A stretch of DNA of 64,000 nucleotides from Kibdelosporangium persicum (GTDB lineage: Bacteria > Actinomycetota > Actinomycetes > Mycobacteriales > Pseudonocardiaceae). A program made the translations under genes and the position numbers. The stretch spans positions 203,170 through 267,169 of the forward strand of contig NZ_JAAATY010000012.1 of the NCBI RefSeq assembly GCF_013280595.1, written 5' to 3'. Position 1 is the stretch's first letter. Every line of letters starts with the position of its first letter. The notes beneath the pieces were generated by a model, which made no database searches, was not told the DNA's origin, and worked only from the letters and a program-made list of their open reading frames with translations. Below, in pieces: positions 1 through 26,826 of the stretch.

Positions 1-749
1 CCTGTGCCGCGTTCACCGGGGACGACTATGTCCTCAACGGACACAAAGCCTTCATCTCCAACGGCCCGATCGCCGACCTGATCGTGGTCTACGCACTGAC
101 CGGCGTGCCCGGCACGTTCACCGGCCTGACCGCGTTCATCGTCCCCCGGGACACCGACGGGCTGACCCTGAGCGAACCGCTGGACAAGATGGGCCTGCGG
201 TGTTCGCCACTGGGGACCGCGGACCTGGTCGGCGTCCGCGTTCCGGCCGATCACGTGGTCGGTCAGGTCGGCGGCGGTTCCTGGCTGCTGTCGCACGTCA
301 TGGCGCGCGAGATCCTGTTCATCGCCGCGGGCCAGGTCGGTCAGATGCAGCGGCGGCTGGACGCCTGCACCGGGCGTGCCCGTGGCCGGGTCCAGTTCGG
401 ACAGCCGATCGGCGCGTTCCAGGCCGTCTCGCACAAGATCGTCGACATGCGGATCAGCGTGGAGACCGCCCGTTACTGGTTGTACGACACGACAACCAGG
501 ATGGTCGCCGGTGAGGACGTCACCGCACGGGTGGCGATGACCAAGATCGTGGTCAGTGAGGCGAACGTGGCCACCGCCCGGACCGCCGTGCAGGTGTTCG
601 GTGGCGCGGGTTACCTGTCCGAGACGGGCATCGAACGCGGCCTGCGGGACGCCATCGCCGGGACCATCTACTCCGGCACGTCGGAGATCCAGCGCAACAA
701 GGTCGCCGCGGTCATGGGACTCGGCGAGAACGGAGGGCAGTCGTGGTGA
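1..749 (+). CDS. Acyl-CoA dehydrogenase, 3' part (cut by the window edge)
   Basis: Only the C-terminal two thirds (about 248 residues, reading from base 3) lie in the window; the gene starts upstream. The middle beta-domain is seen in FNGHK-like (LNGHKAFISNG) and in DKMGLRCSPLGTADL. The C-terminal helical domain has GRVQFGQPIGAFQAVSHKIVDM, and the family tail GTSEIQRNKVAAVMGL includes the usual flavin-side GTSEIQ motif. The family oxidises acyl thioesters with FAD and passes electrons to ETF; here the substrate cannot be read. Its stop overlaps the next start (GTG at 743), so the two genes are translationally coupled. It may belong to the biosynthetic cluster that follows, as acyl-CoA dehydrogenases often do, but that is inference. 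Confidence 0.9.
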   Translation, partial: CAAFTGDDYVLNGHKAFISNGPIADLIVVYALTGVPGTFTGLTAFIVPRDTDGLTLSEPLDKMGLRCSPLGTADLVGVRVPADHVVGQVGGGSWLLSHVMAREILFIAAGQVGQMQRRLDACTGRARGRVQFGQPIGAFQAVSHKIVDMRISVETARYWLYDTTTRMVAGEDVTARVAMTKIVVSEANVATARTAVQVFGGAGYLSETGIERGLRDAIAGTIYSGTSEIQRNKVAAVMGLGENGGQSW

Positions 750-1390
750 TCGGGCCGACCGAGTTCCTGGACTACGAACACGAACGAGTACGTGCCTTCG
801 TCGGCAAGGCGATCGGCGATGCCACGACACCCAAAGATTGTGCTGTACGGCTGTTCTACGCCGTCCGCGACGGCCTCGACTACGAGGTGAGCGGTCAGGA
901 TCTGTCCAGGGAAGGCCTACGCGCGAGTTCGATCGTCGCTCGTGGACAGGGATTCTGCGTGCACAAGTCCATTCTCTACGCCGCCGCGGTGCGCTCGGTC
1001 GGCATCCCGAGCCGGCTCGTGGTCAGTGAAGTCCGCAACCACCTGGCGTCCCCCGCTCTCAAGGCACTGGTCGGCGGCGACACCTTCGTGCACTGGCTCA
1101 CCGCGATCCGGCTCGACGGACGCTGGCTGCACGTCACACCGGTGTTCAACAAGGTGCTGTGCCGGCTGTACCGGATGGAGCCGTTGGAGTTCGACGGCGA
1201 GTCGGACGCGCGGCTGCACCCGTTCACCGACGGCGAGCGAATGGAGTTCCTCACCGAGCACGGTCGCTTTGACGACGTGGACTATGACAGACTGATGGGG
1301 CTCATGCGGACCCGCCACCCGGGTATGTTCGCCAACGGCACGGTGGTGCCGGACTCCGGGTCACTCGCGGCGCAGGCCACCTCGGTGTGA
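743..1390 (+). CDS. Transglutaminase-like superfamily protein
   Basis: A 215-residue protein starting at GTG 743, with GGAGG at 732-736 and a 7-base overlap with the acyl-CoA dehydrogenase. The transglutaminase/papain-like core is visible: Cys in GFCVHKSILYAAAVRSVGIP and His in HWLTAIRLDGRW. The region after it reads HVTPVFNKVL...PLEFDG; in this bacterial subfamily the third residue of the triad is not in the usual D-P position after the His strand, and the LEFDG Asp is conserved instead. No signal peptide or membrane segment. Members of this group are mostly uncharacterised; a few transglutaminase-fold proteins form amide bonds in natural-product pathways, which makes this a candidate tailoring enzyme. 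The exact reaction is unknown. Confidence 0.8.
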   Translation: MVIGPTEFLDYEHERVRAFVGKAIGDATTPKDCAVRLFYAVRDGLDYEVSGQDLSREGLRASSIVARGQGFCVHKSILYAAAVRSVGIPSRLVVSEVRNHLASPALKALVGGDTFVHWLTAIRLDGRWLHVTPVFNKVLCRLYRMEPLEFDGESDARLHPFTDGERMEFLTEHGRFDDVDYDRLMGLMRTRHPGMFANGTVVPDSGSLAAQATSV

Positions 1391-1556: not shown

Positions 1557-4424
1557 ATGTCCGGAAACACCCAACCGAAAGCGGTCATCGTCGGTGCGGG
1601 TCCAGTCGCGTGCTTGGTCGCGATCGAACTGCGCAGGCGCGCTTTCCAGGTCGAGCTCTACGAGCGGGGAACCGATTTCCGCCGTCTGCGCGGTGGCAAG
1701 GGCCACTCCTTCAACCTCACGCTGACCCGGCGCGGTTTGAAGTCGCTGCAGCCGCACCTCATCGATGTCCTGCACCAGAACGGTGTTCCGCTGCCGCAAC
1801 GGGTCATCCACCACGCCGACGGTTCGTTGTCCTACCAGCGCTACGGCACCGAAGAAGACCACTACCTGTTGTCCATCCCGCGTGGACTGTTGCACCACAC
1901 GCTGATGGACGAGGCCGAGAAGGCGGGCGCGGAGATCTTCTTCGAGCACGAGTGCATCCGCGCCGATCCCGCCGCGGCCACGGCCACGTTCGCCACCAGT
2001 TCCTACGGTATCCGGGAGGCCACGGGCGACATCCTGATCGGCTGCGACGGCGCGAACAGCATCGTGCGGCAGGAGATGTCCCGCCGGGGCGCCCGGATGA
2101 GCATCTCCCAGGAGTACATCACCGACGGGTTCGCCGAGCTGAAGATGCCGCCGTCGGCGGGCGGCGGCTTCGCGCTGCTGGAGGCGCTGAGCGACCCGCA
2201 CCGTCCGGACAGCGAGAACCACGGCCTGCACGTCTGGCCGCGCGGCGACTTCGTCCTGCTGTCCCAGCCCAATGTGGACCGAAGCTACACCACCGGGCTG
2301 TTCATGCCGCTCACCTCCGCCGACCCCGAGCAGCCGACCTGGGACAAGCTGAAGACCGAACAGGACGTGGAAGCCCTGTTCTCCCGGTACTTCCCGGACA
2401 TCGTGCCGTTCCTGCCGCAGCTGACCAAGGACATCCTGGCGGCGCCGCCGTCCTGGCTCAAGACCATCAAGTGCTTCCCGTACCACCACGAGCGCACGGT
2501 GCTCATCGGCGACTCGGCGCACACCATGGTCCCGTTCTACGGCCAGGGCATCAACTGCAGCTTCGAGGATGTCCGGACGTTCTTCGAGATCCTGGACCGG
2601 CGCCTGGCCACCGAGGAGCTGCGGGCGGGCATCCGCGCGGCGCTGGCCGACTTCACCGAGGCCCGCAAGGCCCCGGGGGACGCCATCGCCGACCTGTCGC
2701 TGGCGATGCGGGCCGAGCTGAAGTCGCACACCGACGACACCAAGTTCCACGCCCGCAACAAGCTGGAGAAGCAGCTGCACCTGCGCCACCCCGGGGACTT
2801 CGTCCCGCTCTACCACATGGTCGCGTTCACCAACATCCCGTACAACGAGGTGATCAAGCGGCACCACGAGCAGAAGGCCATTCTGGACGAGCTGTGCGAC
2901 CGGTTCGACATCCACACCGAGGCGCCCAAGATCCTCGACTCGTTCCCGGCGAGCCGCGACGGCGTCCGGACCGGTCAGTCGCTGAGCTTCGACCTGGCTC
3001 CGGAGCAGCAGCGCTACCTGCTCGACACGGTTGTCAACCGGTTGCTGCGGTACCAGGAGGACCTGGCCAACGGCAAGTATCCGGCGTCGTACCTGCACCA
3101 CCCGGACGGCGCGCACGACCCGGACGGCGCCCTGATCGGCGCGGAACTGCGCGAGGACGACGTCCCGCAGCACGGCACCAATCTCGAGGTGCTGCTGACC
3201 GAGATCTTCGACAAGGCCGTGCCCAACGGGATGATCCACCCACACCCCGGGTTCATGGCCCACGTCCCGTCGGGCGGGCTGTTCCAGGCCGCGGTCGGTG
3301 AGTTCATCTCGCGCACGCTCAACCGGTTCCCGGGCGCGTGGGCGGCCTCCCCCGGGTTCACGCAGATCGAGTCGAACGTGATCCGGTGGTTCTGCGCCAT
3401 GCTCGGCTACGGCACGGGATCCTTCGGATACCTCACCACGGGCGGGTCGATCGCCAACTTCATGGCATTGCGGTGCGCGCTGGCCCGGGCCGGTGATGTC
3501 GCACAGCAGCGCGGCACGGTCTACGTGTCCTCCCAAGGACATTTCTCCGTGGCCAAGGCCGCACGGATGGCCGGCATCCCCGGTGACCGCGTCCGGAGCA
3601 TCGGCGTGAACCGCGACTACACAATGGACCTGGACGAGCTGCGGCGGGCCGTGAACCGCGACCTCGACCGCGGTTACATCCCGACCTGTGTGGTCGGCAC
3701 CGCGGGCACGACGAGCACCGGCGCGGTCGACGATCTGGCCCAGCTGGCCGACTTCTGCGCGTACTACGGCATCTGGCTGCACGCCGACGCCTGCTTCGGC
3801 GGGTTCTTCCGGCTCACCGCCAGGGGCAAGGTCCTGCTGGCCGGCAGTGAGCTGGCCGACTCGATCGCGGTCGACGCGCACAAGTCGCTGTTCCTGCCGC
3901 ACGGCATCTCCGGGCTGCTGGTCAAGGACCAGTCGCAGCTGAAGGTGGCGTTCGAGATCGGTGGCGCGGCCTACGTGCCGGAACTGTCCACTGACGACGC
4001 GTACGTCGACTTCTGCAACTACGGCCCGGAACTCACCCGGGAGGCCCGTGGGCTGACCGCGTGGCTGCCGATCAAGCTGCACGGCATCAAGGCGTTCGAA
4101 CGGTGCCTGGACGAGAAGCTCGACCTGGCCGACGACCTGGCCGACCGGCTCAGGCACTTCAACGACATCACGCTCGTCGAGCGCGGCAAGCCGCACCTGC
4201 CGACGGTCGGGTTCGGTGTCCGGTCGGACAACCTGGCCGACCAGGCACGCCGCAACGAGCGGCTGGCCGAGCTGATCAACTCGCGCGGCAACGTCTACCT
4301 GTCCACCACCACTCTGCCTGAGGAGGGCGTCGTCGTCCGGTCGTGCATCCTGCACCACCAGACCGACAAGATCGTCATCGACCAGCTCCTGGAAGACGTC
4401 CAGTGGTCCCTCGACAAGCTCTGA
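1557..4424 (+). CDS. Kynurenine 3-monooxygenase / aromatic-L-amino-acid decarboxylase fusion
   Basis: A 955-residue two-enzyme fusion; ATG 1557 follows GGGGAGGAGG. Residues about 8-430 form a group A flavoprotein hydroxylase close to kynurenine 3-monooxygenase: dinucleotide motif GAGPVA (13-18), the LSYQRYG segment, HVWPRGDFVLLSQPN, the FAD motif GDSAHTMVPFYGQGIN and the KMO-type tail PLYHMVAFTNIPYNEV. Residues about 470-955 form a group II PLP decarboxylase: His662 (stacks on PLP), Asp744 in HADACFGGF and PLP lysine Lys776 in DAHKSLFLP, with the same 32-residue Asp-Lys spacing as DOPA decarboxylase. Predicted activity is ring hydroxylation of kynurenine (or a related amino acid) followed by decarboxylation to an arylalkylamine such as 3-hydroxykynurenamine. 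First gene of an operon that also makes tryptophan. No tryptophan dioxygenase or formamidase lies in the window; they could lie left of it. The precise substrate is inferred. Confidence 0.85.
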   Translation: MSGNTQPKAVIVGAGPVACLVAIELRRRAFQVELYERGTDFRRLRGGKGHSFNLTLTRRGLKSLQPHLIDVLHQNGVPLPQRVIHHADGSLSYQRYGTEEDHYLLSIPRGLLHHTLMDEAEKAGAEIFFEHECIRADPAAATATFATSSYGIREATGDILIGCDGANSIVRQEMSRRGARMSISQEYITDGFAELKMPPSAGGGFALLEALSDPHRPDSENHGLHVWPRGDFVLLSQPNVDRSYTTGLFMPLTSADPEQPTWDKLKTEQDVEALFSRYFPDIVPFLPQLTKDILAAPPSWLKTIKCFPYHHERTVLIGDSAHTMVPFYGQGINCSFEDVRTFFEILDRRLATEELRAGIRAALADFTEARKAPGDAIADLSLAMRAELKSHTDDTKFHARNKLEKQLHLRHPGDFVPLYHMVAFTNIPYNEVIKRHHEQKAILDELCDRFDIHTEAPKILDSFPASRDGVRTGQSLSFDLAPEQQRYLLDTVVNRLLRYQEDLANGKYPASYLHHPDGAHDPDGALIGAELREDDVPQHGTNLEVLLTEIFDKAVPNGMIHPHPGFMAHVPSGGLFQAAVGEFISRTLNRFPGAWAASPGFTQIESNVIRWFCAMLGYGTGSFGYLTTGGSIANFMALRCALARAGDVAQQRGTVYVSSQGHFSVAKAARMAGIPGDRVRSIGVNRDYTMDLDELRRAVNRDLDRGYIPTCVVGTAGTTSTGAVDDLAQLADFCAYYGIWLHADACFGGFFRLTARGKVLLAGSELADSIAVDAHKSLFLPHGISGLLVKDQSQLKVAFEIGGAAYVPELSTDDAYVDFCNYGPELTREARGLTAWLPIKLHGIKAFERCLDEKLDLADDLADRLRHFNDITLVERGKPHLPTVGFGVRSDNLADQARRNERLAELINSRGNVYLSTTTLPEEGVVVRSCILHHQTDKIVIDQLLEDVQWSLDKL

Positions 4425-5799: not shown

Positions 5800-7193
5800 A
5801 TGCGCGAATGTCCCGAGTACCCACTCGTGCCCGTTTACGAGGAATTCCTTGCCGACACGATGACGCCGGTGACGGTGTTCGAGCGGCTCTGCGGACCCGA
5901 CGAGCCCGGCTTCCTGCTGGAAAGCGTGCCGGTGACCGGGGACGTCGGGCGGTACTCGTACATCGGGCATCGTCCGGTCCCGCTGACCCTGCCGGCCGGC
6001 GACCCGCTCACCACGCTGCGATCGCTCGCGGCGCAGCGGATCGCCCCGGTCCCGGGACTGCCGCCGTTCCTCGGTGGCGCGGTCGGGTACCTCGGCTGGG
6101 AGACCGCTCGGCACTTCGAGCGGCTGCCCGAGGCCGAGGGCCCGGCGCCCGGCCTGCCGGAGGCGGCGTTCCTCAGCGTCGAGGACCTCGCCGTCTTCGA
6201 CCACGCCACCCGCAGGCTGATCCTGCTGACCGTGCACCGGCCGGCCCAGGAGTCCTATCAGGACGCCCTGGACCGGGTGGCGCGGATGCGGGAGCGGCTG
6301 GCGAATCCGGTGCCGCAGCGTCCGGTCGTGTCACTCTGCCCCGCGCAGGGCGACCTGCTGGACGGCTGGCGGTCGAACGTCACGCAGGAGGAGTTCGAAG
6401 CACGGGTCGAGCGGGCCCGTGAGTACATCGCCGCGGGCGACGCTTTCCAAATCGTGTTGTCGCAACGGTTCACCAAGCAGCTGACCGCGGATCCGCTGGA
6501 CCTGTACCGGCACCTGCGGGCGGTCAACCCGTCGCCGTACATGTACCACCTGAGCCTCGGCGGCGGGCGGCACATCGTCGGCTGCTCGCCCGAACTGCTG
6601 GTGAAGGCGACCGGCAAGCGCATCGAGACCCGGCCGTTGGCCGGGACCCGGGCGCGCGGCAAGGACATCGACGCCGACCTGGCGCTGGAGCGCGAGCTGC
6701 TGGCCGACGAGAAGGAGTGCGCGGAGCACGTCATGCTCGTCGACCTGGGCAGGCACGACCTCGGCCGGGTCGCGGCGCCGGGCAGCGTGCGGGTGGAGAA
6801 GCTGATGGAGATCGAGCGCTTCTCGCACGTGATGCACATTTCGTCCACTGTGGCCGGTGAGCTGGCCGGCAACGCGGACGGGCTGGACGCGTTGCGCTCC
6901 ACGTTCCCCGCGGGCACGCTCAGCGGCGCACCCAAGATCAGGGCGATGGAGATCATCGCCGAACTCGAGCCGGAACGACGGGGCGTGTACGGCGGCGCCC
7001 TCGGTTTCGTCGGCTACGACGGCGCGGCCGATCTGGCGATCGCGTTGCGCACCATGGTCGTCGCCGACGGCAAGGTGCACGTCCAGTCCGGTGCGGGTGT
7101 GGTCGCCGACTCCGACGCGACCGCCGAGTACCAGGAGACGCTGCACAAGGCCCGGGCCATGTTCACCGCCGTCCGGCAGGCGGAGGCGGTCCG

Positions 7194-7197
<4 letters not shown>
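5800..7197 (+). CDS. trpE: Anthranilate synthase component I
   Basis: A 465-residue chorismate-utilising enzyme that makes anthranilate with ammonia from TrpG. The C-terminal catalytic domain shows DAFQIVLSQRF, RPLAGTRARG, ECAEHVMLVDLGRHDLGRV and FPAGTLSGAPKIRAMEII, all typical of TrpE. The N-terminal segment FLLESVPVTGDVGRYSYIG keeps the LLES motif that forms the tryptophan feedback site, so this copy is probably still feedback-sensitive rather than deregulated. It begins 32 bases after the P450 stop and overlaps trpG by 4 bases (ATGA). Its place in a secondary-metabolite operon suggests a cluster-dedicated tryptophan supply, although whether the genome has another trp set cannot be seen here. 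Confidence 0.95.
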
Positions 7198-7757
<560 letters not shown>

Positions 7758-7758
7758 G

Positions 7759-8781
7759 ATGATTGACCTGATCAAGCGGGTGTCCCGAGGGGAGACCCTG
7801 AGCGAGTCGGACGCCGCGCTGGCGATGCGCACGATCATGTGCGGCGCCGCGGGGCCCGCGCGGATCGCCGGGTTCGCGATGGCGCTGACGATGCGCGGTG
7901 AGACCGTCGACGAGATCGTGGGCATGGCCAAGGCGGCCCGCCAGCTGGCCAGGCCGGTGCCGTTCGGCTCCGACGTGCTGGACACCTGCGGGACCGGCGG
8001 CGACGGCCTGAACACGTTCAACATCTCCACCGCGTCCGCCATTGTCGCGGCGGCCTGTGGCGTCAAGGTGGCCAAGCACGGCAACCGCAGCGCCTCGTCC
8101 GGCTGCGGCAGCGCCGACGTGCTGGAGGAGCTCGGCGTGCGGATCGACCTCACGCCTGAGGACGCGGCCCGGTGCCTCGCCGAGACGGGCATCACGTTCC
8201 TGTTCGCGCCGGTGTTCCACCCCGCGTTCCGGCACGCCTCCGGGCCGCGCAAGGAGCTGGGCATCCGCACGGTGTTCAACCTGCTGGGCCCGTTGTGCAA
8301 CCCCGCTCGTGCCCAGTACCAGGCGCTCGGCGTGCCCAACGCCGACCTGGTCGCTCCGATGGCCGAGGTGCTCGCCCGGCTGGGCGTCACCCGGGCACTG
8401 GTGTTCCACTCCGAGGACGGCCTGGACGAGCTGAGCATCGGCGCACCGTCCACAGTGGTCGAAGTGATCGACGGCGAGCGCCGGGCGTACCGGTTCGACC
8501 CGGCCGGCCTCGGCCTGCCGAAGGCCTCGGTCGCCGACCTCGCCGGGGGTGACCGTGCGGTGAACGCGGACATCATCCGCCGGATCTTCGCCGGTGAGCC
8601 GGGTCCGGGCCGCGACATCGTGCTGCTCAACGCCGCGGCGGCGTTGCGGATCACCGGGCACGCCAAGGACTGGCACGACGGTCTCGGGCAGGCCGCCCGT
8701 GCGATCGACAGCGGTGCCGTGACGGCGTTGCTCGACAAGTGGGTCGCGGTGTCGCAGAACCGAGTGGCGGTGCCGTCATGA
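7759..8781 (+). CDS. trpD: Anthranilate phosphoribosyltransferase
   Basis: A 340-residue enzyme that joins anthranilate to PRPP. The PRPP-binding motif GTGGDGLNTFNIST and the KHGNRSASSGCGSADVLEELG segment are intact, as is HPAFRHASGPRKELGIRTVFN near the anthranilate site. It starts directly after the trpG stop and overlaps trpC by ATGA. Usual length for the family; no oddities seen. Confidence 0.95.
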   Translation: MIDLIKRVSRGETLSESDAALAMRTIMCGAAGPARIAGFAMALTMRGETVDEIVGMAKAARQLARPVPFGSDVLDTCGTGGDGLNTFNISTASAIVAAACGVKVAKHGNRSASSGCGSADVLEELGVRIDLTPEDAARCLAETGITFLFAPVFHPAFRHASGPRKELGIRTVFNLLGPLCNPARAQYQALGVPNADLVAPMAEVLARLGVTRALVFHSEDGLDELSIGAPSTVVEVIDGERRAYRFDPAGLGLPKASVADLAGGDRAVNADIIRRIFAGEPGPGRDIVLLNAAAALRITGHAKDWHDGLGQAARAIDSGAVTALLDKWVAVSQNRVAVPS

Positions 8782-9581
8782 CCTTGTCCGACAACGGCCT
8801 CCGGCCGACGATGCTGACCAGGCTGATCCAGACCGCCAACGAGCAGACCGCACGGCGCAGGAGCGTGCGTCCACTGTCCGAAGTGGCCGAACTGGCCGCG
8901 AAGGCGGAGCCGCCACGGGACTTCGTCGCCGCGCTGAGCGAACCGGGGCTGAGCGTCATCGCCGAGATGAAGCCACGCAGCCCGTCGAAAGGGCCGCTGA
9001 CCGACGACTACCGTCCGGCTGAGCGGGCCCGCGCCTACCGCAGGGGCGGTGCGGCCGCGATCTCGGTGCTGACCCACGAGGACGGCTTCGGCGGCAGCCC
9101 CGAGCACCTGCCCGTCGCCCGCGCCGAGGGCGGCATCCCGGTGCTGCGCAAGGACTTCATCGACGACGAATACCAGATCCTCGAAGCCCGGGCGCTGGGC
9201 GCGGACGCGCTGCTGCTGATCGTCGCCTCGCTGACGCCGCACCGGCTGGCCGAACTGCTCGGCTACACCAGAGGCCTCGGCATGGAGGCGCTGGTCGAGG
9301 TGCACGACGCCGACGAGGTCGACATCGCGCTCGACGCGGGCGCGACCGTGATCGGCGTGAACCACCGGGATCTGCGGGACTTCCGGATCGACATGACACT
9401 CACCGCGCGGCTGCGCGACCGGGTCGGTTCCGGGCGCCTGCTCGTCGGTGAGAGCGGGATCAACACCAGACAGGACGCGGCCGCGCTGTACGAGGCGGGC
9501 GCCGCGGCGGTACTCGTCGGCGAGGTCCTGATGAAGGCCGCCGACCCCGAGGGGAAAGTCAGGGAGCTGAGGCAGGCATGA
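8778..9581 (+). CDS. trpC: Indole-3-glycerol phosphate synthase
   Basis: A 267-residue TIM-barrel enzyme of the tryptophan pathway. The start at 8778 is chosen because it gives the ATGA overlap with trpD; an upstream in-frame start at 8739 would overlap trpD by 43 bases. Motifs: [41 protein letters not shown] and LVGESGI, giving the catalytic Lys and Glu residues of the family. It lacks a fused PRA isomerase domain, as is usual in actinobacteria, where PriA does that step elsewhere in the genome; no trpF-like gene is present here. It overlaps trpB by ATGA. Confidence 0.95.
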
Positions 9582-10780
9582 GCGACCGCACCAGGTTCGG
9601 CCGTTTCGGCGGGCGTTACGTCCCGGAGACGCTGATGGCCGCACTCGACGAACTGCAGACCGTGTGGCTGGATCTGCGCGAGGACGAGGGCTTCCTCGGT
9701 GAGCTGCGGGCCCGGCAGGCGACGTTCATCGGCAGGCCGACGCCGCTGTACCACGCCGAGCGGCTGACCGAGCACTTCGGTGGCGCGACCATCCACTTCA
9801 AGCGTGAGGACCTCTGTCACACCGGCGCGCACAAGCTGAACAACGCGCTCGGCCAGGCGGTGCTGGCTCGCCGGATGGGCAAGAAGCGGATCATCGCCGA
9901 GACCGGCGCCGGTCAGCACGGCGTGGCCACCGCGACCGTATGTGCCCGGTTCGGGCTGCCGTGCACCGTCTACATGGGCGCGGAGGACATGCGCCGCCAG
10001 GAGGTCAACGTCCGGCGGATGCGGATGCTCGGCGCCGAGGTCCGGCCGGTGACCAGCGGCACGGCCACGCTGAAGGACGCCACGTCCGAGGCGATCCGTG
10101 ACTGGGTCACCAACGTCCGCGACACGCACTACATCATCGGCTCGGTCGTCGGACCGGCTCCGTACCCGGAGATGGTCCGCGAGTTGCAGCGCGTGATCGG
10201 TGACGAGGCCCGCGCGCAGTATCTGGCCGCGGAGAACACGTTGCCGGACACGGTGGTCGCGTGTGTCGGCGGCGGGTCGAACTCGATCGGCATGTTCGCC
10301 GGGTTCGTCGACGACCCCGGCGTGGAACTGGTCGGTGTCGAGGCGGGCGGGCACGGCGTCGCGAGCGGGCAGCACGCCGCGGCGGCGGTCGGCGGCCAGG
10401 CCGGCGTCCTGCACGGCAGCTTCAGCTACATCCTGCAGGACCGGCACGGCCAGGTGCTGCCGACGCACTCGATCGCCGCGGGTCTGGACTACCCCGGCGT
10501 CGGCCCGGAGCACGCGATGCTGGCCGAGCTGGGCCGGGCGTCCTATGTGGCCGTCAACGACGACGAGGCGGTCGCCGCGTTCAAGCTGTGCACCCGCCTC
10601 GAAGGCATCATGCCCGCGCTGGAGACGTCGCACGCCCTGCACCACGTCGGCGAGCTCGCCCGTGAGATGGGCCCGGGAGCACGCATCCTGCTGTGCTTCT
10701 CCGGCCGCGGCGACAAGGACATGCACACCATCGAGTCGGTGTCCCCCACCGACATGCCGGTGATCGGAGACCCGGAATGA
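9578..10780 (+). CDS. trpB: Tryptophan synthase beta chain
   Basis: A 400-residue PLP enzyme condensing indole and serine. The PLP lysine lies in [16 protein letters not shown], the phosphate-binding glycine loop in [12 protein letters not shown], and the substrate loop in [14 protein letters not shown]. The N-terminus [14 protein letters not shown] is typical of the TrpB1 type that works with TrpA. It overlaps both trpC and trpA by 4 bases, the normal arrangement for a stoichiometric alpha/beta complex. Confidence 0.96.
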
Positions 10781-11535
10781 CTCTGGCTGCAAGGTTGAAG
10801 CAAGACGGTCTGTCCCTCATCCCCTACCTGATGGCCGGCCACCCGGACCTGGACACCACCCGCGAGGTCGGCCGCAAGCTGGTCAACACCGGGATCGCCG
10901 CGATCGAGCTGGGCATCCCGTACAGCGACCCGCTGGCCGACGGACCGGTGATCCAGCGCGCGGGGCAGCGTGCCCTCGACGCGGGCACCACGACCGAGGG
11001 CTGCCTGGAGGTCGCCGCGGACATCGCGGCCGAGCAGGCGGCACCCGTGATCCTGATGACGTACGTCAACCCGGTCCTGGCCTACGGCCCGGAGCGGTTC
11101 GCCCGTGACGCCGCCGAGGCGGGCGTCGCCGGGGTGATCATCCCGGACGTGCCGGTCGAGGAGTCCGCCGACATCGCGCGGACGATCACGGCCGCCGGCC
11201 TGGACACCGTGTTCCTGGTGGCTCCCACGAGCCCGGACGAGCGGATCGTGGCCGCGGCCACCGCGTCGACCGGTTTTGTGTACTGCGTGACGGTCACCGG
11301 GATCACCGGCAGCCGTTCGGCACTGCATCCCGACGTGCACGGACTGCTCGCCAAGGTCCGGTCGCACACCGACCTTCCCGTCGCAGCGGGCTTCGGCATC
11401 TCCAGTGCCGAGCAGGTCTCGCTGCTGCGGGAGCACGCCGACGCCGCGATCGTCGGCAGCGCGATCGTCAACGAACTGGACGCCGGACGGGATCCCGGCC
11501 CGCTTGTGAGGGAGCTGCTGTCAGCATGCAAATGA
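10777..11535 (+). CDS. trpA: Tryptophan synthase alpha chain
   Basis: A 252-residue TIM-barrel protein that cleaves indole-3-glycerol phosphate. The ATG at 10777 overlaps the trpB stop (ATGA). The two catalytic acids are present: Glu in [11 protein letters not shown] and Asp in [13 protein letters not shown]. Phosphate-binding segments [10 protein letters not shown] and AIVGSAIV close the barrel. It overlaps the DAHP synthase gene by 10 bases. With the preceding five genes it makes a complete chorismate-to-tryptophan set apart from PRA isomerase. Confidence 0.95.
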
Positions 11536-12956
11536 TCGACATCCAGCCACACCGGCTGGGCATCCCCGTCCTGCCCGAGACGTCGGCCACGCCGCGGACG
11601 CACCTGCCGCCCGCCACCTGGCACCCCGACTCCTGGCGTGCCCGGCCCATCGCGCAGCAGCCCGACTGGCCGGACCCGCACCACGTCCAGCGGGTCGCCG
11701 AGGAGATCGCCCTGCAGCCGCCGCTGGTGCTGCCCGACGAGATCGGCACCCTGCAGCAGTCGCTGGCCGCCGCGGCGGAAGGCAACGCCTTCCTGTTGCA
11801 GGCCGGTGACTGCGCCGAGCGGTTCACGTCGTGCACCGAGCACGGCGTGCGCAGCAAGCTGCGGGTGATCCTGCAGCTGGCGATCCTGCTGACCTACGGC
11901 TCGGGACTGCCGGTGGTCAAGGTCGGCCGGATCGCCGGCCAGTTCGCCAAGCCACGCAGCAAGCCCACCGAGGTCATCGACGGCGTCGAGTTGCCCGCCT
12001 ACCGCGGCGACATCGTCAACGGCCCCGAGCCGACCGAAGAGGCCCGCCGCCCGGACGTCGACCGGTTGATGCGCGCGTACCACCACTCGTCCGCGACGCT
12101 GAACGTGTTGCGTGCCTTGACCAAGGAGGGCTTCGCCGACCTCGAGCAGGTGCACGCGTGGAACACCGAGTTCGTCCGCCGCAGCCCGGCCGGGCAGCAC
12201 TACGAGCAGGTGGCCGACAACATCACATGGGCACTGCGGTTCATGCAGGCGTGCGGCATGAACGGCAAGGAGTCGTTGCGGCAGGTGCACTTCTACACCT
12301 CGCACGAGGCACTGCTGCCCCAGTACGAGCAGGCGTTGACCCGGTACGACAAGAAGACCGGCGCCTGGTTCGACACCAGCGCGCACATGGTGTGGATCGG
12401 TGACCGGACCCGGCAGCTCGACGGCGCGCACGTGGAGTTCCTGTCCGGGATCGCCAACCCGATCGGGCTGAAGGTCGGTCCGACCACCACGCCGGGCGGA
12501 CTGCGTGACCTGGTCGAACGACTCGACCCGGACCACGTGCCGGGCCGGCTGGTGCTCATCTCGCGGATGGGCGCCGACCAGGTGACCGACCTGCTGCCGC
12601 CGCTGCTGCGCGCGGTGCGTTCCACCGGCCGCTCGGTGGTGTGGGCGTGCGATCCGATGCACGGCAACACGTTCGTGTCCCAGAGCGGCTACAAGACCAG
12701 GCGGTTGAGCGACATCACCCGCGAGATCGTCGGCTTCTTCGCCGCACACAAGCAGGAAGGAGTGCACCCAGGCGGCATCCATCTCGAACTCACCGGCGAC
12801 AACGTGACGGAATGCCTCGGTGGGGCCGAGGAAATCCTGGACACCCACCTCTGCACCCGGTACGAGACCGCGTGCGACCCCCGGCTGAACGCCAGCCAGT
12901 CCATCGAACTGGCCTTCCGGGTCGCCGAGCTGTTGCGCGAACACCGCGGCCGGTGA
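11526..12956 (+). CDS. Class II 3-deoxy-7-phosphoheptulonate (DAHP) synthase
   Basis: A 476-residue plant/actinobacterial type DAHP synthase, the entry step of the shikimate pathway (PEP plus erythrose 4-phosphate). Recognised by QAGDCAERF, VGRIAGQFAKPRS, WNTEFV, the long conserved WIGDRTRQLDGAHVEFL, NPIGLKVGPT, CDPMHGNTF and HLELTGDNVTECLGG. Either ATG 11526 or ATG 11532 could start it; 11526 fits the GAGGGAG upstream. Its place as the last gene of the trp operon suggests that carbon is pulled into chorismate for the cluster, a pattern seen in other aromatic natural-product clusters. Confidence 0.95.
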   Translation: MQMIDIQPHRLGIPVLPETSATPRTHLPPATWHPDSWRARPIAQQPDWPDPHHVQRVAEEIALQPPLVLPDEIGTLQQSLAAAAEGNAFLLQAGDCAERFTSCTEHGVRSKLRVILQLAILLTYGSGLPVVKVGRIAGQFAKPRSKPTEVIDGVELPAYRGDIVNGPEPTEEARRPDVDRLMRAYHHSSATLNVLRALTKEGFADLEQVHAWNTEFVRRSPAGQHYEQVADNITWALRFMQACGMNGKESLRQVHFYTSHEALLPQYEQALTRYDKKTGAWFDTSAHMVWIGDRTRQLDGAHVEFLSGIANPIGLKVGPTTTPGGLRDLVERLDPDHVPGRLVLISRMGADQVTDLLPPLLRAVRSTGRSVVWACDPMHGNTFVSQSGYKTRRLSDITREIVGFFAAHKQEGVHPGGIHLELTGDNVTECLGGAEEILDTHLCTRYETACDPRLNASQSIELAFRVAELLREHRGR

Positions 12957-12960
12957 TCGC

Positions 12961-12986
12961 GAAGTCCTGAGTGGACTTCCGGAAGT
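12961..12986 (+). terminator. Small hairpin and overlapping palindrome after the DAHP synthase gene
   Basis: GAAGTCC (12961-12967) and GGACTTC (12973-12979) form a perfect 7-bp stem. The second arm also belongs to the 12-bp palindrome ACTTCCGGAAGT (12975-12986), so two structures compete for the same bases. It may be a weak terminator at the end of the trp operon or a protein-binding site for the next gene; see the related palindromes at 20895, 20917 and 26827. Confidence 0.4.
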
Positions 12987-13016
12987 GAGGAGGAGAGCGG
13001 GCGCGAACCGCCGCGG

Positions 13017-13061
13017 GACGCGGTCACGAAGATATCGTTACGGCATCTTCGTGACCGCGTC
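13017..13061. promoter_or_regulatory. Perfect 17-bp inverted repeat upstream of the first DszC-like gene
   Basis: GACGCGGTCACGAAGAT (13017-13033) and its exact reverse complement (13045-13061) flank an 11-base loop. There is no T-run after it, and the right arm ends 25 bases before the GTG start at 13087. It could end the trp operon transcript or sit in the leader of the monooxygenase gene as an RNA structure or operator. The sequence differs from the other hairpins of the window. Confidence 0.6.
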
Positions 13062-13086
13062 GTGCCGTTTGCGCCAAGGAGAAGCC

Positions 13087-14286
13087 GTGACGAACACTCA
13101 GGTGCCCGCGCAGGAGCAGTGGGCCCGTGAGCCCTTACCCAGCACCCTTCCCGGATGGCTGGACCGCGCCAGGCAGGTCCGTGACATCTACTCGCTCAAC
13201 GACGCCTCCCGTGACCGGGAACGAACCCCGGCACACCCGCAGGTGCAACTGCTGAAGCAGGCCGGACTGCACCGCCTGCTCGGCCCGGTGGAACACGGCG
13301 GCGCAGGCGCGGAGTGGCCATGGGTACACCGGATCATCCGTGAAGTGGCGTCCGGGGACGGCTCGCTCGGCCAACTGCTCGGCTACCACTACCTGTGGTA
13401 CGCGTGGCCACGGCTGACCGGCTCCCCCAGCCAGGCCGCCGGATTCGAAGCCGACGCCACAGCCGGGAACTGGTTCCTCGCGGGCGCGCTCGACTCCGAC
13501 GACACACGTGTCACGATCCGCGAGGACGGCGACCACCTGATCTTCAACGGTGTCAAGCATTGCGCGACAGGGGTGCGCTACTCCGACGTCACCATGGTCG
13601 GCGGACTGTTGAACGGCACGCACGTCGTCGGTTTTGTCCCCACCGACCAGCCAGGCCTGCTCCTGCACGACGACTGGGACAGCATGGGCCAGCGGTTGAC
13701 CGCGAGCGACACCTTGACACTGCAGGACTTACATGTCCGTGCGGACCGCACCGTCACCTCACTCGGCAACGCGTACAGCACGATGACGGTCCCCGTCCGC
13801 CAGCTGATCTTCGCCAGCATCTGGCTCGGTATCGCGTCCCAGGCGCTGCGTGAAACAGCGGAGTACAGCCACAAACACGGCCGCGGCTGGGGCGGATACG
13901 AGAAGCTGGTCGACGAACCTCGTGTCATCGACGTGGTCGGTGATCTGACCGCCAAGCTCTGGACAGCCGAGGCTTTGCTCGACAAGGTCGCGGAGGAAGG
14001 CGTACCGCTGCACCGCGACCCGTCAAGCGTCACCGCGCGGACACGCGGCGAGTACAAGGTGCGCACCGCGGCGGTCCAGGCCCGCGCCCAGGAAGTGGCC
14101 GTGGAGGTCGGCTCCCGGCTCTTCGAGGTCACCGGCGCGAGGTCGACGACCTCGGCGTTCGGCTTCGACCGCTTCTGGCGCAACGCCCGGACGCACACGC
14201 TGCACGACCCGGTCAGCTACCAGCACGAGGAGATCGCTCGCTACGCGATCCTCGGCGCCGTGCCGACCCCTGGCTGGTACTCCTGA
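13087..14286 (+). CDS. DszC-like flavin-dependent monooxygenase (acyl-CoA dehydrogenase fold), paralogue 1
   Basis: A 399-residue protein of the acyl-CoA dehydrogenase fold in the two-component hydroxylase branch (DszC of dibenzothiophene metabolism, XiaF of xiamycin indole oxidation). GTG 13087 is chosen for the AAGGAGAAG just upstream. Family marks shared with paralogues 2 and 3: EHGGAGAEWPW, GDGSLGQLLGYH, DDWDSMGQRL, RGWGGYEKLVDEPRVIDVVGDL, FEVTGARSTTS and the C-terminal GWYS. The typical acyl-CoA glutamate is not evident, which fits a monooxygenase using FADH2/FMNH2 and oxygen on an aromatic ring. Two TTA codons (13135-13137 and 13729-13731) are unusual for such GC-rich DNA. Reduced flavin probably comes from the reductase at 24305-24814. 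Confidence 0.85.
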   Translation: MTNTQVPAQEQWAREPLPSTLPGWLDRARQVRDIYSLNDASRDRERTPAHPQVQLLKQAGLHRLLGPVEHGGAGAEWPWVHRIIREVASGDGSLGQLLGYHYLWYAWPRLTGSPSQAAGFEADATAGNWFLAGALDSDDTRVTIREDGDHLIFNGVKHCATGVRYSDVTMVGGLLNGTHVVGFVPTDQPGLLLHDDWDSMGQRLTASDTLTLQDLHVRADRTVTSLGNAYSTMTVPVRQLIFASIWLGIASQALRETAEYSHKHGRGWGGYEKLVDEPRVIDVVGDLTAKLWTAEALLDKVAEEGVPLHRDPSSVTARTRGEYKVRTAAVQARAQEVAVEVGSRLFEVTGARSTTSAFGFDRFWRNARTHTLHDPVSYQHEEIARYAILGAVPTPGWYS

Positions 14287-14293
14287 CCTGCTC

Positions 14294-14316
14294 GGCCGGG
14301 GCGGTCAGTCCCGGCC
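14294..14316. terminator. GC-rich hairpin between convergent genes
   Basis: GGCCGGG (14294-14300) pairs with CCCGGCC (14310-14316). It lies between the convergent ends of the monooxygenase (stop at 14286) and the hydroquinone-reductase-like gene (stop at 14305-14307, in the loop). No T-tract, as is common in actinobacteria. Confidence 0.4.
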
Positions 14317-15204
14317 GTGCGGACTGTGCCAACCACTCAGATCCGGCCCGCCCGCCACAATGCCCGACGGGTTCACGTCGGTGTGCACCCTGTAGTAGTG
14401 CTCCTTGATGTGGTCGAAGTCCACAGTGTCCCCGAACCCCGGCGTCTGGAACAGATCCCGCGCGTACGCCCACAACACCGGCATCTCGGTCAGCTTGTTC
14501 CGGTTGCATTTGAAGTGGCCGTGGTACACCACGTCGAACCGCACAAGCGTCACGAAGAACCGGATGTCGGCCTCGGTGATGCTGTCCCCCACCAGGTACC
14601 GCTGCGTGGACAACCGGTTCTCCAGCTCGTCGAGCCTGTCGAACAGCCGTTGGTACGCCTCGTCGTACGCCTTCTGCGTCGTGGCGAAGCCGGCCTTGTA
14701 GACGCCGAGGTTCACGTCTTCGGCCAAGTCCTCGATGACCTGGTCGATCTCCGGCCGCAGCGCTTGCGGGTACAGGTCGGGCGCGTCCGGTCGCGCGTAC
14801 TTCGACCACTGCGTGGCGAGGTCGATGGTGATGGTGTTGTGGTCGTTGGTCACCAGCCTGCCGGACGCGATGTCCACAATGGCCGGGACGCTGACACCGC
14901 CGTCGTAGCCCGGCCTGACCGCTTCGTACGCCTCGGCCAGATACCGGATGCCCAGTACGGGATCGCGGCCGTCCGGATCGAGGGTGAACCGCCAGCTGCG
15001 TTCGTCCTGGATCGGATCGGTCACGCCGACCGAGATCGCGTCCTCGAGCCCCATCAGCCGACGCACGATCAGGGATCGGCTGGCCCACGGGCAGGCCTTG
15101 TTGACCACAAGGCGATAACGCCCAGGCTCGGCCGGCCAGGGACCGTCAGCGGTGATCCGGGCGTTGAAGTGGGTCACCATGACCATGTCGTCGTTGTCAC
15201 TCAT
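14305..15204 (-). CDS. Glutathionyl-hydroquinone reductase-like protein (Xi-class GST)
   Basis: A 299-residue protein; ATG at 15204 with GAGGAGGA upstream, rejecting a longer in-frame opening that would run through a hairpin. The N-terminal thioredoxin-like domain holds the catalytic CPWA motif (NKACPWASRSLIVRRLMGL) typical of the ECM4/YqjG Xi class; the C-terminal helical GST domain has DAPDLYPQALRPEID and RYLVGDSITEADIRFF. The known reaction is thiol-dependent reductive removal of a thiol adduct from a (hydro)quinone. Actinomycetes normally make mycothiol and not glutathione, so the thiol partner is uncertain. It is the last gene of the minus-strand block with the hydroxylases, consistent with a quinone-type intermediate or self-protection. 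Confidence 0.85.
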   Translation of the reverse strand: MSDNDDMVMVTHFNARITADGPWPAEPGRYRLVVNKACPWASRSLIVRRLMGLEDAISVGVTDPIQDERSWRFTLDPDGRDPVLGIRYLAEAYEAVRPGYDGGVSVPAIVDIASGRLVTNDHNTITIDLATQWSKYARPDAPDLYPQALRPEIDQVIEDLAEDVNLGVYKAGFATTQKAYDEAYQRLFDRLDELENRLSTQRYLVGDSITEADIRFFVTLVRFDVVYHGHFKCNRNKLTEMPVLWAYARDLFQTPGFGDTVDFDHIKEHYYRVHTDVNPSGIVAGGPDLSGWHSPHGRD

Positions 15205-15718: not shown

Positions 15719-15728
15719 GGGGGTCCTT

Positions 15729-16565
15729 TCAGGAGATGTCAAAAAGGGTGCCCGGGCGCGGTTCGCACCGCTGCTCGGTCCCGAGGTTGCTCAGGTGCGA
15801 CATCTCCTCGTCGCTGAGCTCGAAGTCGAAGATCTGGAAGTTGCTCCGGATCCGGTCGGGGTTGACCGACTTGGGGATCACCTGGATGCCGAGCTGGATG
15901 TGCCAGCGCAGCACCACTTGCGCGGGTGACCGGTCGTGCCCGGCCGCAATCCCGAGCACCACCGGGTGCTCCAGCAGTCCCTGGTTGCGCCCGATCGGGC
16001 TCCACGCCTGGGTGACGATGCCGTGCTCGGCGTGGAACGCGCGCAGTTCCTCCTGGGGGTACATCGGGTGCAGTTCGATCTGGTTCATCGCCGGCACCAC
16101 GTCGCACTCGTCGAACAGCCGCCGCAGCTCCGGGATGCCGAAGTTGGACACGCCGATCGACCGGACGCGGCCGTCGGCCTGCAGCTTCTCGAACGCCTTC
16201 CAGCTCTCGACGAACAGGTTCTGCTTCGGCCGCGGGAAGTGCATCAGGTAGATGCCCAGCCGCTCCATGCCGAGCTTGCTCATGCTCAGGTCGAACGCCC
16301 GCATGGTCCTGTCGTAGCCGTGGTCGTCGTTCCACAGCTTGGTGGTGACGTTCAGCTCGTCGGCCGGGATGCCGCTGTTGGCGACCGCCTTGCCGACGCC
16401 TTCTTCGTTCTTGTACGCCGCCGCCGTGTCGATCAGCCGGTAGCCGGTCTCGATGGCCATCGTGGTGACCTGGGCCGCCTCCTCCGGCGGGACCATGAAG
16501 ACGCCGTAGCCGATCTGCGGGATCACGGACCCGTCGTTGAACGTCAGGGTGGGAACCTCTGCCAT
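15729..16565 (-). CDS. Aldo/keto reductase
   Basis: A 278-residue AKR of the 2,5-diketo-gluconate reductase/AKR5 type. The catalytic tetrad is complete: Asp and Tyr in LIDTAAAYKNEEGVGKA, Lys in TTKLWNDDHG and His in YLMHFPRP. The NADPH-binding end IPKSVNPDRIRSNFQIFDFELS is conserved. It is co-transcribed with the monooxygenase upstream (13-base gap) and SnoaL-like protein downstream (10-base gap). It probably reduces an aldehyde or ketone of the pathway, for instance one formed from the arylalkylamine; the substrate is inferred only from context. Confidence 0.92.
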   Translation of the reverse strand: MAEVPTLTFNDGSVIPQIGYGVFMVPPEEAAQVTTMAIETGYRLIDTAAAYKNEEGVGKAVANSGIPADELNVTTKLWNDDHGYDRTMRAFDLSMSKLGMERLGIYLMHFPRPKQNLFVESWKAFEKLQADGRVRSIGVSNFGIPELRRLFDECDVVPAMNQIELHPMYPQEELRAFHAEHGIVTQAWSPIGRNQGLLEHPVVLGIAAGHDRSPAQVVLRWHIQLGIQVIPKSVNPDRIRSNFQIFDFELSDEEMSHLSNLGTEQRCEPRPGTLFDIS

Positions 16566-16578
16566 GACTGGACGCCTT

Positions 16579-17823: not shown

Positions 17824-17868
17824 AGGACCTCCTTGAGAGTTTCAACTGGTGTGCGGTGAACGAACCGG

Positions 17869-19086: not shown

Positions 19087-19116
19087 TTCAGCTCTCTCCA
19101 GTGCGTAGTGAGACGG

Positions 19117-22271: not shown

Positions 22272-22883
22272 TCAGGCCGCGCGCAGCGCGGTCAGCAGCT
22301 CGGTGATCCTGGCCAGCCTGCCGCCCTGGAACTTGGCGGCGACGATCGTCTCCTTGCCCGGCAGCCCGTGCTCGGCGATGTGGCTGACACCGTAAGGGTT
22401 TCCGCCCGCGGCGTGGATGATGTCGTAGTCGACGTAACCGGTCGGGACGATGATGGAACCCCAGTGGTACATCACGTTGTACAGCGAGAGCAGCGTCGAT
22501 TCCTGGCCGCCGTGCCGCTCACCGGTGCTGGTGAACCCGGTGACCGGCTTGTTGGCCAGGTGGCCGCCTTCCCAGACGCCACCGGTGGTGTCGATGAACG
22601 CCTTGAGCTGCGCGGCGATGTTGCCGTACCGGGTCGGCGTGCCGAACGCGTAGCCGTCGGCCCACGTCAGGTCGTCCAACGTGGCCTCCGGGATGGAGGC
22701 GGTGGCGTTGAGGTGCGCCCGCCAGTCCGGGTTCTTGTCGACGGCCTTGTCGGGGGCCGTCTCGGCGACCCGCCGGAGGCGCACGTCCGCCCCGGCGTCC
22801 GCCGCGCCTTCCGCGATGGCCTCCGCCGTCGCGTGCACGTTGCCGGTCGCCGAGTAGTACACGACCGCGATCCGAGGACTCAT
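22272..22883 (-). CDS. NAD(P)H:quinone oxidoreductase, WrbA type
   Basis: A 203-residue flavodoxin-fold protein, the usual WrbA length. ATG 22883 is preferred; GTG 22889 is an alternative. The FMN phosphate loop is IAVVYYSATGNVHATAEAI; the second WrbA signature lies in DGYAFGTPTRYGNIAAQLKAFID and the third in GHLANKPVTGFTSTGERHGGQESTLLSLY. The known reaction is two-electron reduction of quinones to hydroquinones, avoiding semiquinone radicals. In this cluster it supports a quinone-type intermediate or product, together with the glutathionyl-hydroquinone-reductase-like protein. Confidence 0.9.
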   Translation of the reverse strand: MSPRIAVVYYSATGNVHATAEAIAEGAADAGADVRLRRVAETAPDKAVDKNPDWRAHLNATASIPEATLDDLTWADGYAFGTPTRYGNIAAQLKAFIDTTGGVWEGGHLANKPVTGFTSTGERHGGQESTLLSLYNVMYHWGSIIVPTGYVDYDIIHAAGGNPYGVSHIAEHGLPGKETIVAAKFQGGRLARITELLTALRAA

Positions 22884-23080
22884 GACCACAACCCCTACCG
22901 AAGTTGGAAAGAAGATACTCCGGCAACCGTATCGATCGGTTCGCCACACGGCCGGTGTTCAGCGCGCAACACGGCCGGATCTCGTTAAGTGCGGGAACAA
23001 CGTCAACTACGTCTACCACACGCGGTGGCCGCTCGACACGATCGGGAGCGAAGCCTCACCCGGAAGGATGGAGATCTCCA

Positions 23081-26656: not shown

Positions 26657-26826
26657 CTTGTTCCGGCCTTCTTTCGGTATTGAAAGCCTATCCGGCAATT
26701 CAGGGCCGGCCACTCTTTCGCTTTTTTGAAACAGCGTTCACCAGCGGTTTCTCACGCCATGTCCGGTGTGCGATAAGTGCCTGTCCAGCGGTGTGTCACA
26801 AGTCTTCGCACGTATTGCCCGCACCG

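Follow-up and report, generated by a model that had tools for sequence, protein, structure and literature searches.

A widespread fusion of a kynurenine 3-monooxygenase-like hydroxylase with a PLP decarboxylase and its predicted role in forming 3-hydroxy-4-methylkynurenamine

Does the window, the 64,000-nucleotide stretch of Kibdelosporangium persicum DNA analyzed here, encode a genuine fusion of a kynurenine 3-monooxygenase (KMO) with an amino acid decarboxylase, and what would such an enzyme make? One open frame runs from ATG to stop at 1557..4424 (+ strand, 955 aa), with a coding-like GC content of 0.66/0.43/0.93 over the three codon positions. Pfam places FAD_binding_3 at residues 9-346 (2.6e-19) and Pyridoxal_deC at residues 531-887 (3.2e-51), each exceeding its gathering score. 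A PDB sequence search matched residues 4-444 to solved KMOs (rat KMO 6lkd, 4.4e-73) and residues 531-937 to solved decarboxylases (R. gnavus tryptophan decarboxylase 4obu, 5.2e-59). These data bear out the earlier note, which had read a KMO-like hydroxylase and a group II PLP decarboxylase in a single 955-residue frame; we delimit the KMO-like half at residues ~4-445, the linker at ~446-475 and the decarboxylase half at ~475-955. No solved chain covers both halves among the 60 listed of the 91 matched. As the note had supposed, we found no characterized KMO-decarboxylase fusion among the PDB sequence matches or in a literature search of open-access papers.

A sequencing error joining two separate genes is ruled out, as the fusion recurs in other proteins and in related genomes. 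Of 56 database proteins found, counting that of the window, 46 carry both Pfam domains (the search favors similar lengths, and scores come from the best 7992 candidates). A single open frame crosses both halves in G216 and G218 (85-86% identity) and in G050, G048, G016, G891, and G985 (59-62% identity). The gene of G1058 is also fused, with a longer linker, and that of G361 is broken in frame. With at least 46 such proteins, in several actinobacterial genera and in Sorangium, the architecture is not unique, and both the fusion and its wide distribution are firm. In its own genome, the fusion is the only match to the whole KMO half; two other matches cover approximately residues 7-174 of this half at 28-30% identity. 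A phage collection gave decarboxylase matches in 2 records only (29% identical), which we judged irrelevant.

Separate KMO and decarboxylase genes adjoin in Streptomyces sp. 3211 and in Embleya. Although 99% of the query aligns to Embleya by tblastn, a stop divides the two genes there, and we rejected it as a further example of the fusion. In our tree, the KMO halves of the fused proteins form their own clade together with antibiotic-type KMOs (support 100/100). The fusion may have had one origin or several: the best KMO tree nests unfused sequences among fused ones (4 changes), but an alternative tree grouping every fused row is not rejected (p-AU 0.16). KMO-only relatives (39-50% identity) occur in three loci together with a SibL-type methyltransferase, adenylation domains, and a gene of the dioxygenase family; from this content we label them pyrrolobenzodiazepine-like, or antibiotic-type, clusters. 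Their KMOs nest within the fused family on the best tree, so that pyrrolobenzodiazepine-type pathways may derive from the fusion pathway by loss of the decarboxylase half.

We then consider each half. Sequence and fold searches both return KMOs, kynurenine complexes among them, as the nearest solved relatives of the first half, and KMOs match better over the whole fold than other flavin hydroxylases do. Both FAD-binding motifs, GxGxxG and GD(A/S)AH, are present (P0001). According to the accessible part of one report, Arg84, Tyr98, and Tyr404 of the P. fluorescens KMO bind the kynurenine carboxylate (PMC6376250). Our alignment shows that they correspond to R82, Y96, and Y419, which are invariant in 43/43 fused proteins. 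Asn369 of the same enzyme, a kynurenine contact, is replaced by Met384 in the window protein; at this position the 43 fused proteins carry Asn (26), Met (13), His (3), or Arg (1), and the substrate of the Met-bearing branch may therefore differ. By fold and residues this half is KMO-like, and hydroxylation of L-kynurenine is predicted.

In the decarboxylase half, H662, D744, K776, and Y806 are invariant in all 43 aligned fused proteins; the earlier note had placed the first three exactly. His and Tyr at the H662 and Y806 places presumably favor decarboxylation over aldehyde synthesis. The profile and these four catalytic residues point to a group II PLP decarboxylase, while its substrate is a guess, given just 27-28% identity to the nearest solved enzyme in the fold search. 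The closest unfused relatives among the matches are uncharacterized proteins from Embleya, Streptomyces, Ensifer, and haloarchaea. The earlier note had read the KMO-like half as apparently complete and the decarboxylase as complete; in the window protein, the decarboxylase active site keeps its residues, whereas that of the KMO keeps the compared substrate residues except for the Asn369 contact. Residue conservation is firm, and the active sites of both halves appear largely kept, with kynurenine the likely substrate.

Further support for this substrate comes from a SibL-type gene at 23078..24121 (+; SibL 4qvg, 3.2e-121), a predicted 3-hydroxykynurenine C4-methyltransferase. Its open frame starts at 22904, the true start being probably near 23081. 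Besides the window, we compared 9 related fused-gene loci from two families, and a homologue is present in 9/9. SibL is the crystallized 3-hydroxykynurenine C4-methyltransferase of the sibiromycin pathway; its Y134F variant loses 98% of activity, and Tyr288/Asp292/His335 hold the amino-acid tail of the substrate (PMC4426599). The window protein is 56% identical to SibL and keeps 12 of 13 compared active-site residues. Six methyltransferases (window and 5/9 loci) are 56-59% identical to SibL, and all keep Tyr134, Tyr295, and Tyr288/Asp292/His335. Five of the six hydrogen-bonding residues (Y99, Y134, Y288, D292, Y295, H335) are thus retained, Y99 being F in 9/9 proteins compared (window, five fused loci, and three antibiotic-type loci). 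The constant presence of this gene is independent support for the kynurenine substrate proposed in the earlier note.

Since the methyltransferase keeps the residues for the amino-acid tail, it likely acts between hydroxylation and decarboxylation. We consider it probable that the fusion hydroxylates kynurenine and decarboxylates C4-methylated 3-hydroxykynurenine, made by the SibL-type neighbor, to 3-hydroxy-4-methylkynurenamine. The two halves are physically fused, which would also suit an immediate sequence from kynurenine through 3-hydroxykynurenine to 3-hydroxykynurenamine, perhaps with site-to-site hand-over, the amine being methylated afterwards. Moreover, no SibL-type methyltransferase lies within 18 kb of the two unfused KMO/decarboxylase pairs, so that the core can work unmethylated there and methylation is not tied to it. 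We nevertheless hold this order to be unlikely, because the methyltransferase retains residues that bind the carboxyl and amino groups of an amino acid (PMC4426599), a fixed contact between the domains is not apparent in the predicted structure (pTM 0.57; residues 469-476 of the linker have low confidence), and 12 to 124 residues separate the halves across the 43 fused proteins. The retained tail-binding residues and the structural model likewise fail to support the direct channeling envisaged in the earlier note.

Where the kynurenine would come from bears on a second alternative. A set of tryptophan genes (trpE, trpG, trpD, trpC, trpB, trpA; 5800..11535, +) and a class II DAHP synthase gene (11526..12956, +; TIGR01358 8.3e-222, above cut-off; 8/9 related loci) are a predicted tryptophan supply. 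TrpE matches NCBIfam TIGR00564 above cut-off and is found in 8/9 related loci; the genes we take to be trpG, trpD, trpC, trpB, and trpA, named from their translations and gene order, occur in 5 to 7 of 9. Searches for a tryptophan dioxygenase and for a formamidase came up empty in the window cluster and in all 9 related loci; by contrast, each of the three antibiotic-type loci includes a dioxygenase-family gene. Such a gene lies elsewhere in the genome in 9/10 fused-gene genomes; that of G361 has neither a dioxygenase-family gene nor a PF04199 formamidase. An IDO search (0/12) was uninformative, its control being likewise without a match. With a kynureninase probe, neither the window cluster nor the 9 loci gave a match at E 1e-3; this probe is insensitive, reaching only E 0.001-0.003 in 2/3 antibiotic-type loci.

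The lack of an in-cluster dioxygenase in 9/9 loci, and of any in the G361 genome, would be expected if the KMO-like half used another aromatic amino acid, tryptophan or a ring-modified tryptophan, to yield a hydroxytryptamine-type amine, kynurenine never being made. The Met that replaces the substrate-contacting Asn in 13/43 proteins and the nearest solved decarboxylase, a tryptophan decarboxylase, point the same way. This seems improbable to us: the KMO carboxylate residues are invariant, Asn is kept in 26/43 fused proteins, the partner methyltransferase retains a 3-hydroxykynurenine pocket, and dioxygenase-family genes are present in 9/10 fused-gene genomes. A catalytically idle half, with for instance the KMO supplying 3-hydroxykynurenine while the decarboxylase fold serves assembly or another PLP reaction, is highly improbable. 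The activity of both halves is predicted from sequence, and PLP fold type I enzymes readily switch reaction, but all 43 proteins share the four decarboxylase residues and three of the four substrate residues compared for the KMO.

The remaining genes indicate what may follow hydroxylation, methylation, and decarboxylation by the fusion and its SibL-type partner. A cytochrome P450 gene (4439..5767, +; Pfam p450 6.8e-52, start taken from the frame) is likely co-transcribed with the fusion; together with a SARP-type regulator (24845..26713, -; BTAD and NB-ARC) and the SibL homologue, it accompanies the fusion in 9/9 related loci. Two quinone-handling families are represented: a WrbA-type NAD(P)H:quinone oxidoreductase (22272..22880, -; TIGR01755 and NF002999 above cut-off) in 8/9 related loci and a glutathionyl-hydroquinone reductase-like protein (14305..15204, -) in 7/9. 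The latter has no NCBIfam match and is named from 4pts (2.9e-124), YqjG 3r3e (2.7e-69), and 4uss (9.6e-63), the last being annotated "glutathionyl hydroquinone reductase." Among three DszC-like flavin monooxygenases of the window, that at 19562..20797 (-; DszC 3x0x 6.1e-67) is nearest to the single DszC-like gene of 8/9 related loci; the second lies at 16579..17823 (-; NF043015 1e-71, below cut-off) and the third at 12985..14286 (+; SfnB and DszC models, both below cut-off). A flavin reductase (24305..24814, -; Pfam PF01613 1.5e-39; 7/9 related loci, two only 25-26% identical) is their possible partner. An aldo/keto reductase (15729..16565, -; Pfam PF00248; 7/9) and an MFS exporter (17869..19086, -; Pfam MFS_1, NF033135 below cut-off; 5/9) are also encoded. 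The cluster, which spans approximately -2630 to 26713 in window coordinates, is conserved across loci and apparently undescribed.

Upstream, the window opens within an acyl-CoA-dehydrogenase-like gene (3' part at 1..749, +), which starts 406 bases before it and belongs to an adenylation domain-carrier protein-cupin-ACAD cassette kept (77-87%) only in the two same-genus loci. A transglutaminase-fold protein (743..1390, +; Pfam PF01841 3.3e-14), likewise confined to same-genus loci and with no solved relative at E 0.01, possibly forms an amide bond with a carrier-bound acyl group. Directly upstream there is a stand-alone adenylation domain with a carrier protein, and no two-module NRPS lies beside the fusion. 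A substrate assignment for this adenylation domain from a specificity code was discarded as unreliable. Some 20 kb beyond these genes, again upstream, lies a large ORF (L008 16354-19332).

From these genes we infer each reaction, the step order, and the product class. The trp and DAHP synthase genes would presumably supply tryptophan, and a dioxygenase and formamidase from other parts of the genome would open it to kynurenine. The KMO half, with FAD and NAD(P)H, would add OH at C3 of L-kynurenine to give 3-hydroxykynurenine, and the SibL-type enzyme CH3 at C4 to give 3-hydroxy-4-methylkynurenine. The decarboxylase half would then free CO2 to leave 3-hydroxy-4-methylkynurenamine, K776 forming the Schiff base, His662 lying over PLP, and Tyr806 in the mobile loop by homology. 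A quinone or quinone imine would result from oxidation of this o-aminophenol amine by the P450 and the DszC-like monooxygenase, to be reduced or detoxified by the WrbA-type and glutathionyl-hydroquinone reductase-like proteins. Within the genus of the window, the free amine may receive an acyl group from the carrier-protein cassette and the transglutaminase-fold protein.

Formation of a hydroxyquinoline requires oxidation of the amine to an aldehyde. The hydroxyquinoline suggested earlier is not supported, as the cluster carries quinone-handling enzymes instead. The product might, tentatively, belong to an undescribed class of bacterial alkaloids, in which the first two pyrrolobenzodiazepine-type precursor steps are kept and 3-hydroxy-4-methylkynurenine is then decarboxylated and oxidized, yielding a methylated amino(imino)quinone. 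Among product families, we rejected foxicin (PMC5318452) and mansouramycin (PMC10821133, PMC11857447, PMC12892944), the accessible parts of these reports describing no kynurenine chemistry. If correct, our proposal extends bacterial kynurenine chemistry by a decarboxylating branch and draws attention to a conserved, uncharacterized family of clusters whose predicted intermediate, 3-hydroxy-4-methylkynurenamine, is tractable. The fused enzyme offers a simple entry point for assays, with two readouts from a single protein and known cofactors.

Compared with rat (6lkd) and P. fluorescens (5fn0/6fox) KMO, the window protein is alike in fold, FAD motif, and carboxylate-binding Arg/Tyr/Tyr (31-34% identity, fold search), but it carries a decarboxylase as a second half, belongs to a distinct clade (100/100), and has Met384 for Asn369. 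Fusions of KMO with formamidase (PF04199; P0048, P0050, and P0051) likewise join a KMO to a predicted tryptophan-breakdown enzyme; their partner is different, and the tree places them with P. fluorescens KMO, outside the KMO-decarboxylase family. The R. gnavus tryptophan decarboxylase (4obu/4obv) shares the group II PLP fold and the catalytic Lys/Asp/His/Tyr with the second half, at 27-28% identity. The early pyrrolobenzodiazepine pathway (SibL, sibiromycin) shares the KMO and the 3-hydroxykynurenine C4-methyltransferase. With no NRPS pair beside the fusion and no in-cluster dioxygenase found, a pyrrolobenzodiazepine cluster is ruled out for the window, and the acid cleaved to anthranilate in that pathway is predicted to be decarboxylated here. 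The same type of amine as that predicted for the fusion is known from mammals: as far as the available text of PMC8295276 goes, 3-hydroxykynurenamine is a biogenic amine that animal cells form as a side product when they catabolize tryptophan, and it is reported to be immunomodulatory in mice. An enzyme making it or its methyl derivative would thus be a useful tool. Unlike this side product, the bacterial amine is predicted to be a dedicated intermediate and is probably ring-methylated.

The earlier note had claimed a single 955-residue frame at 1557–4424 (+) holding a kynurenine 3-monooxygenase (KMO)-like half and a group II PLP decarboxylase half (KMO-DC). The frame proved genuine: it is uninterrupted and coding-like, with GC at the three codon positions of 0.66/0.43/0.93, and both FAD_binding_3 and Pyridoxal_deC exceed their Pfam gathering scores. 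Among the best 25 of 55 matches, no NCBIfam model reached its cut-off. By sequence, solved KMOs match residues 4–444 and solved decarboxylases residues 531–948. The AlphaFold model (43 sequences; mean pLDDT 85.7, pTM 0.57) contains a low-confidence linker at 469–476; for the KMO half, the TM by target against rat and P. fluorescens KMO is 0.86–0.90. Because the match of the decarboxylase half to R. gnavus tryptophan decarboxylase is poorer (TM 0.74–0.76, rmsd about 14 Å), the relative placement of the modelled parts is not reliable.

The fusion occurs widely. Both domains were present in 46 of the 56 proteins found, the window's own counted, in a search that favours fused proteins since only those of similar length were admitted (7992 candidates scored). 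Among the names given to their sources are Kibdelosporangium, Parasphingorhabdus, Nocardiopsis, Actinomadura, Streptosporangium, Actinokineospora, Streptomyces, Aeromicrobium, Saccharopolyspora and Sorangium. The closest named relatives, at 86% and 85%, come from Kibdelosporangium sp. MJ126-NF4 and Actinosynnema sp. ALI-1.44, respectively, so that a Kibdelosporangium-like actinobacterium is the probable source of the window. We aligned 43 of the 56 proteins. Left out were two shorter fused ones (P0041, P0045), one with the decarboxylase alone (P0046), one short protein (P0047), the three fusions of KMO to a formamidase (P0048, P0050, P0051) and six decarboxylases (P0049, P0052–P0056). The decarboxylase residues named by the earlier note (H662, D744, K776) were invariant in this alignment, as was the loop tyrosine Y806. 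P0048, P0050 and P0051, one of which bears a soil-metagenome protein name, join KMO to a formamidase-like PF04199 domain and represent a second kind of KMO fusion. At the genome level, 8 of 390 genomes of the window's family match at E 1e-100 (own genome counted; G013 is KMO-only and G361 is broken in frame), as do 3 of 394 in the class sample (own genome counted; the other two KMO-only) and, at E 1e-150, 3 of 341 in a second family, all fused.

We fetched nine other fused-gene loci of 34–51 kb, six from the window's family and three from another (G216, G218, G050, G048, G016, G361, G891, G985, G1058), and used the proteins of the window's cluster as queries against them (E 1e-8, matches covering 40% or more of the query); the count was run a second time for three loci. 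All nine carry a P450, a SARP regulator and a methyltransferase resembling SibL of the sibiromycin pathway. DAHP synthase, TrpE, a WrbA-type reductase and a DszC-like flavin monooxygenase are each found in eight; a glutathionyl-hydroquinone reductase-like protein, an aldo/keto reductase, a flavin reductase (only 25–26% identity in G016 and G1058) and TrpG in seven; TrpA, TrpB and TrpD in six; TrpC and MFS in five. These counts are lower bounds, because each stretch covers a limited length and that of G985 stops with its contig at 34 kb. From KMO-DC through DAHP synthase, genes overlap or lie at most 32 bases apart. The window has three DszC-like genes (12985–14286, 16579–17823, 19562–20797), probably local duplications; eight of the nine loci have one, best matching the third copy. 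An MFS exporter at 17869–19086, which resembles the Cmx/CmrA chloramphenicol-exporter family below its cut-off, possibly exports the product. Upstream of the window (stretch L007), a TrpB-like gene (TrpB2, 15663–17027), additional to the operon trpB, adjoins an EamA transporter and is kept only in two same-genus loci. A stand-alone adenylation domain, a carrier protein and an ectoine-synthase-like cupin also lie there (17240–19527) and run into the ACAD gene. This cassette, with a transglutaminase, is kept at 77–87% only in two same-genus loci; the weaker adenylation or ACAD matches in the remaining loci (26–40%) are probably other genes.

Unfused relatives also occur. On a plasmid of Streptomyces sp. 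3211, KMO (45%) and decarboxylase (53%) are adjoining genes followed by a related P450 (47%); a cupin also follows them (L020). Embleya sp. NBC_00896 was rejected as a fused case, its KMO frame ending about 100 bases ahead of the decarboxylase frame. Three KMO-only relatives (G630, 50%; G460, 42%; G013, 39% identity) adjoin a dioxygenase-family gene, a SibL-type methyltransferase and adenylation domains, and we read their loci as pyrrolobenzodiazepine-like, antibiotic-type clusters. In the KMO tree, unfused and KMO-only relatives group with the fused family and are separated from the rat, Pseudomonas and formamidase-fused KMOs with support 100/100. KMOs of the antibiotic type are nested among fused ones, and a single clade of all fused rows was not rejected (p-AU 0.16). 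Unfused decarboxylases 39–46% identical to the decarboxylase half were seen in Ensifer (L022 9992–11455) and haloarchaea (L064 8064–9437, L065 7980–9410), with KMO absent among their annotated neighbours.

Kynurenine chemistry is most strongly supported by the SibL-type methyltransferase at 23078–24121 (METHYLTRANSFERASE), evidence that does not depend on the KMO half. This enzyme matches SibL at 3.2e-121, the next solved relative at 1.2e-25. According to PMC4426599, SibL methylates C4 of 3-hydroxykynurenine and holds the amino-acid tail with Tyr288, Asp292 and His335. The window enzyme keeps these three among 12 of 13 residues compared, but has Phe for SibL Tyr99, as does every one of the nine proteins set against SibL (the window's own, those of five of the nine fused loci and those of the three antibiotic-type loci). 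Since the tail-binding residues are kept, the methyltransferase most likely acts ahead of decarboxylation.

Kynurenine would come from enzymes encoded elsewhere. Nine of 10 fused-gene genomes have a dioxygenase-family gene (PF03301), and in none of the 10 was one found beside the fused gene; in the window's genome it lies on contig C1, adjoining a kynureninase-like gene read from DNA, and the cluster on C12. PF04199 formamidase candidates are present in six of seven fused-gene genomes examined (G891, G985 and G1058 left out), none of them beside the cluster, and the best candidate of the window's genome has no relative in the fused-gene loci. G361 has neither gene, and its fused gene (L031 15598–18454) is broken in frame inside the decarboxylase half, near 16389–16406. 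The cluster may therefore be decaying there, or the kynurenine reading may be wrong for this genome. A kynureninase probe matched nothing in the fused loci; it is insensitive, giving just E 0.001–0.003 in two of the three antibiotic-type loci.

We propose that cluster genes supply tryptophan, and that the resulting kynurenine would be hydroxylated by the KMO half to 3-hydroxykynurenine, methylated by the SibL-type enzyme to 3-hydroxy-4-methylkynurenine and decarboxylated by the other half of KMO-DC to 3-hydroxy-4-methylkynurenamine. More speculatively, the P450 and DszC-like enzyme might convert this amine to a quinone or quinone imine, a step supported by the presence of two quinone-handling enzymes in the cluster. 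Hydroxyquinoline formation would require prior oxidation of the amine to an aldehyde.

The KMO half, the decarboxylase half and the methyltransferase are each of a known kind. We found no description of their combination or of the cluster family in the open-access literature; as only open-access papers and no natural-product cluster database were covered, a subscription-journal account could have been missed. In P. fluorescens KMO, according to PMC6376250, the kynurenine carboxylate is held by Arg84, Tyr98, Tyr404 and Asn369. KMO-DC shares the first three (R82, Y96, Y419; invariant in 43/43 aligned proteins), whereas Asn369 is replaced by Met384, at a site occupied by Asn in 26 of the aligned proteins, Met in 13, His in 3 and Arg in 1.
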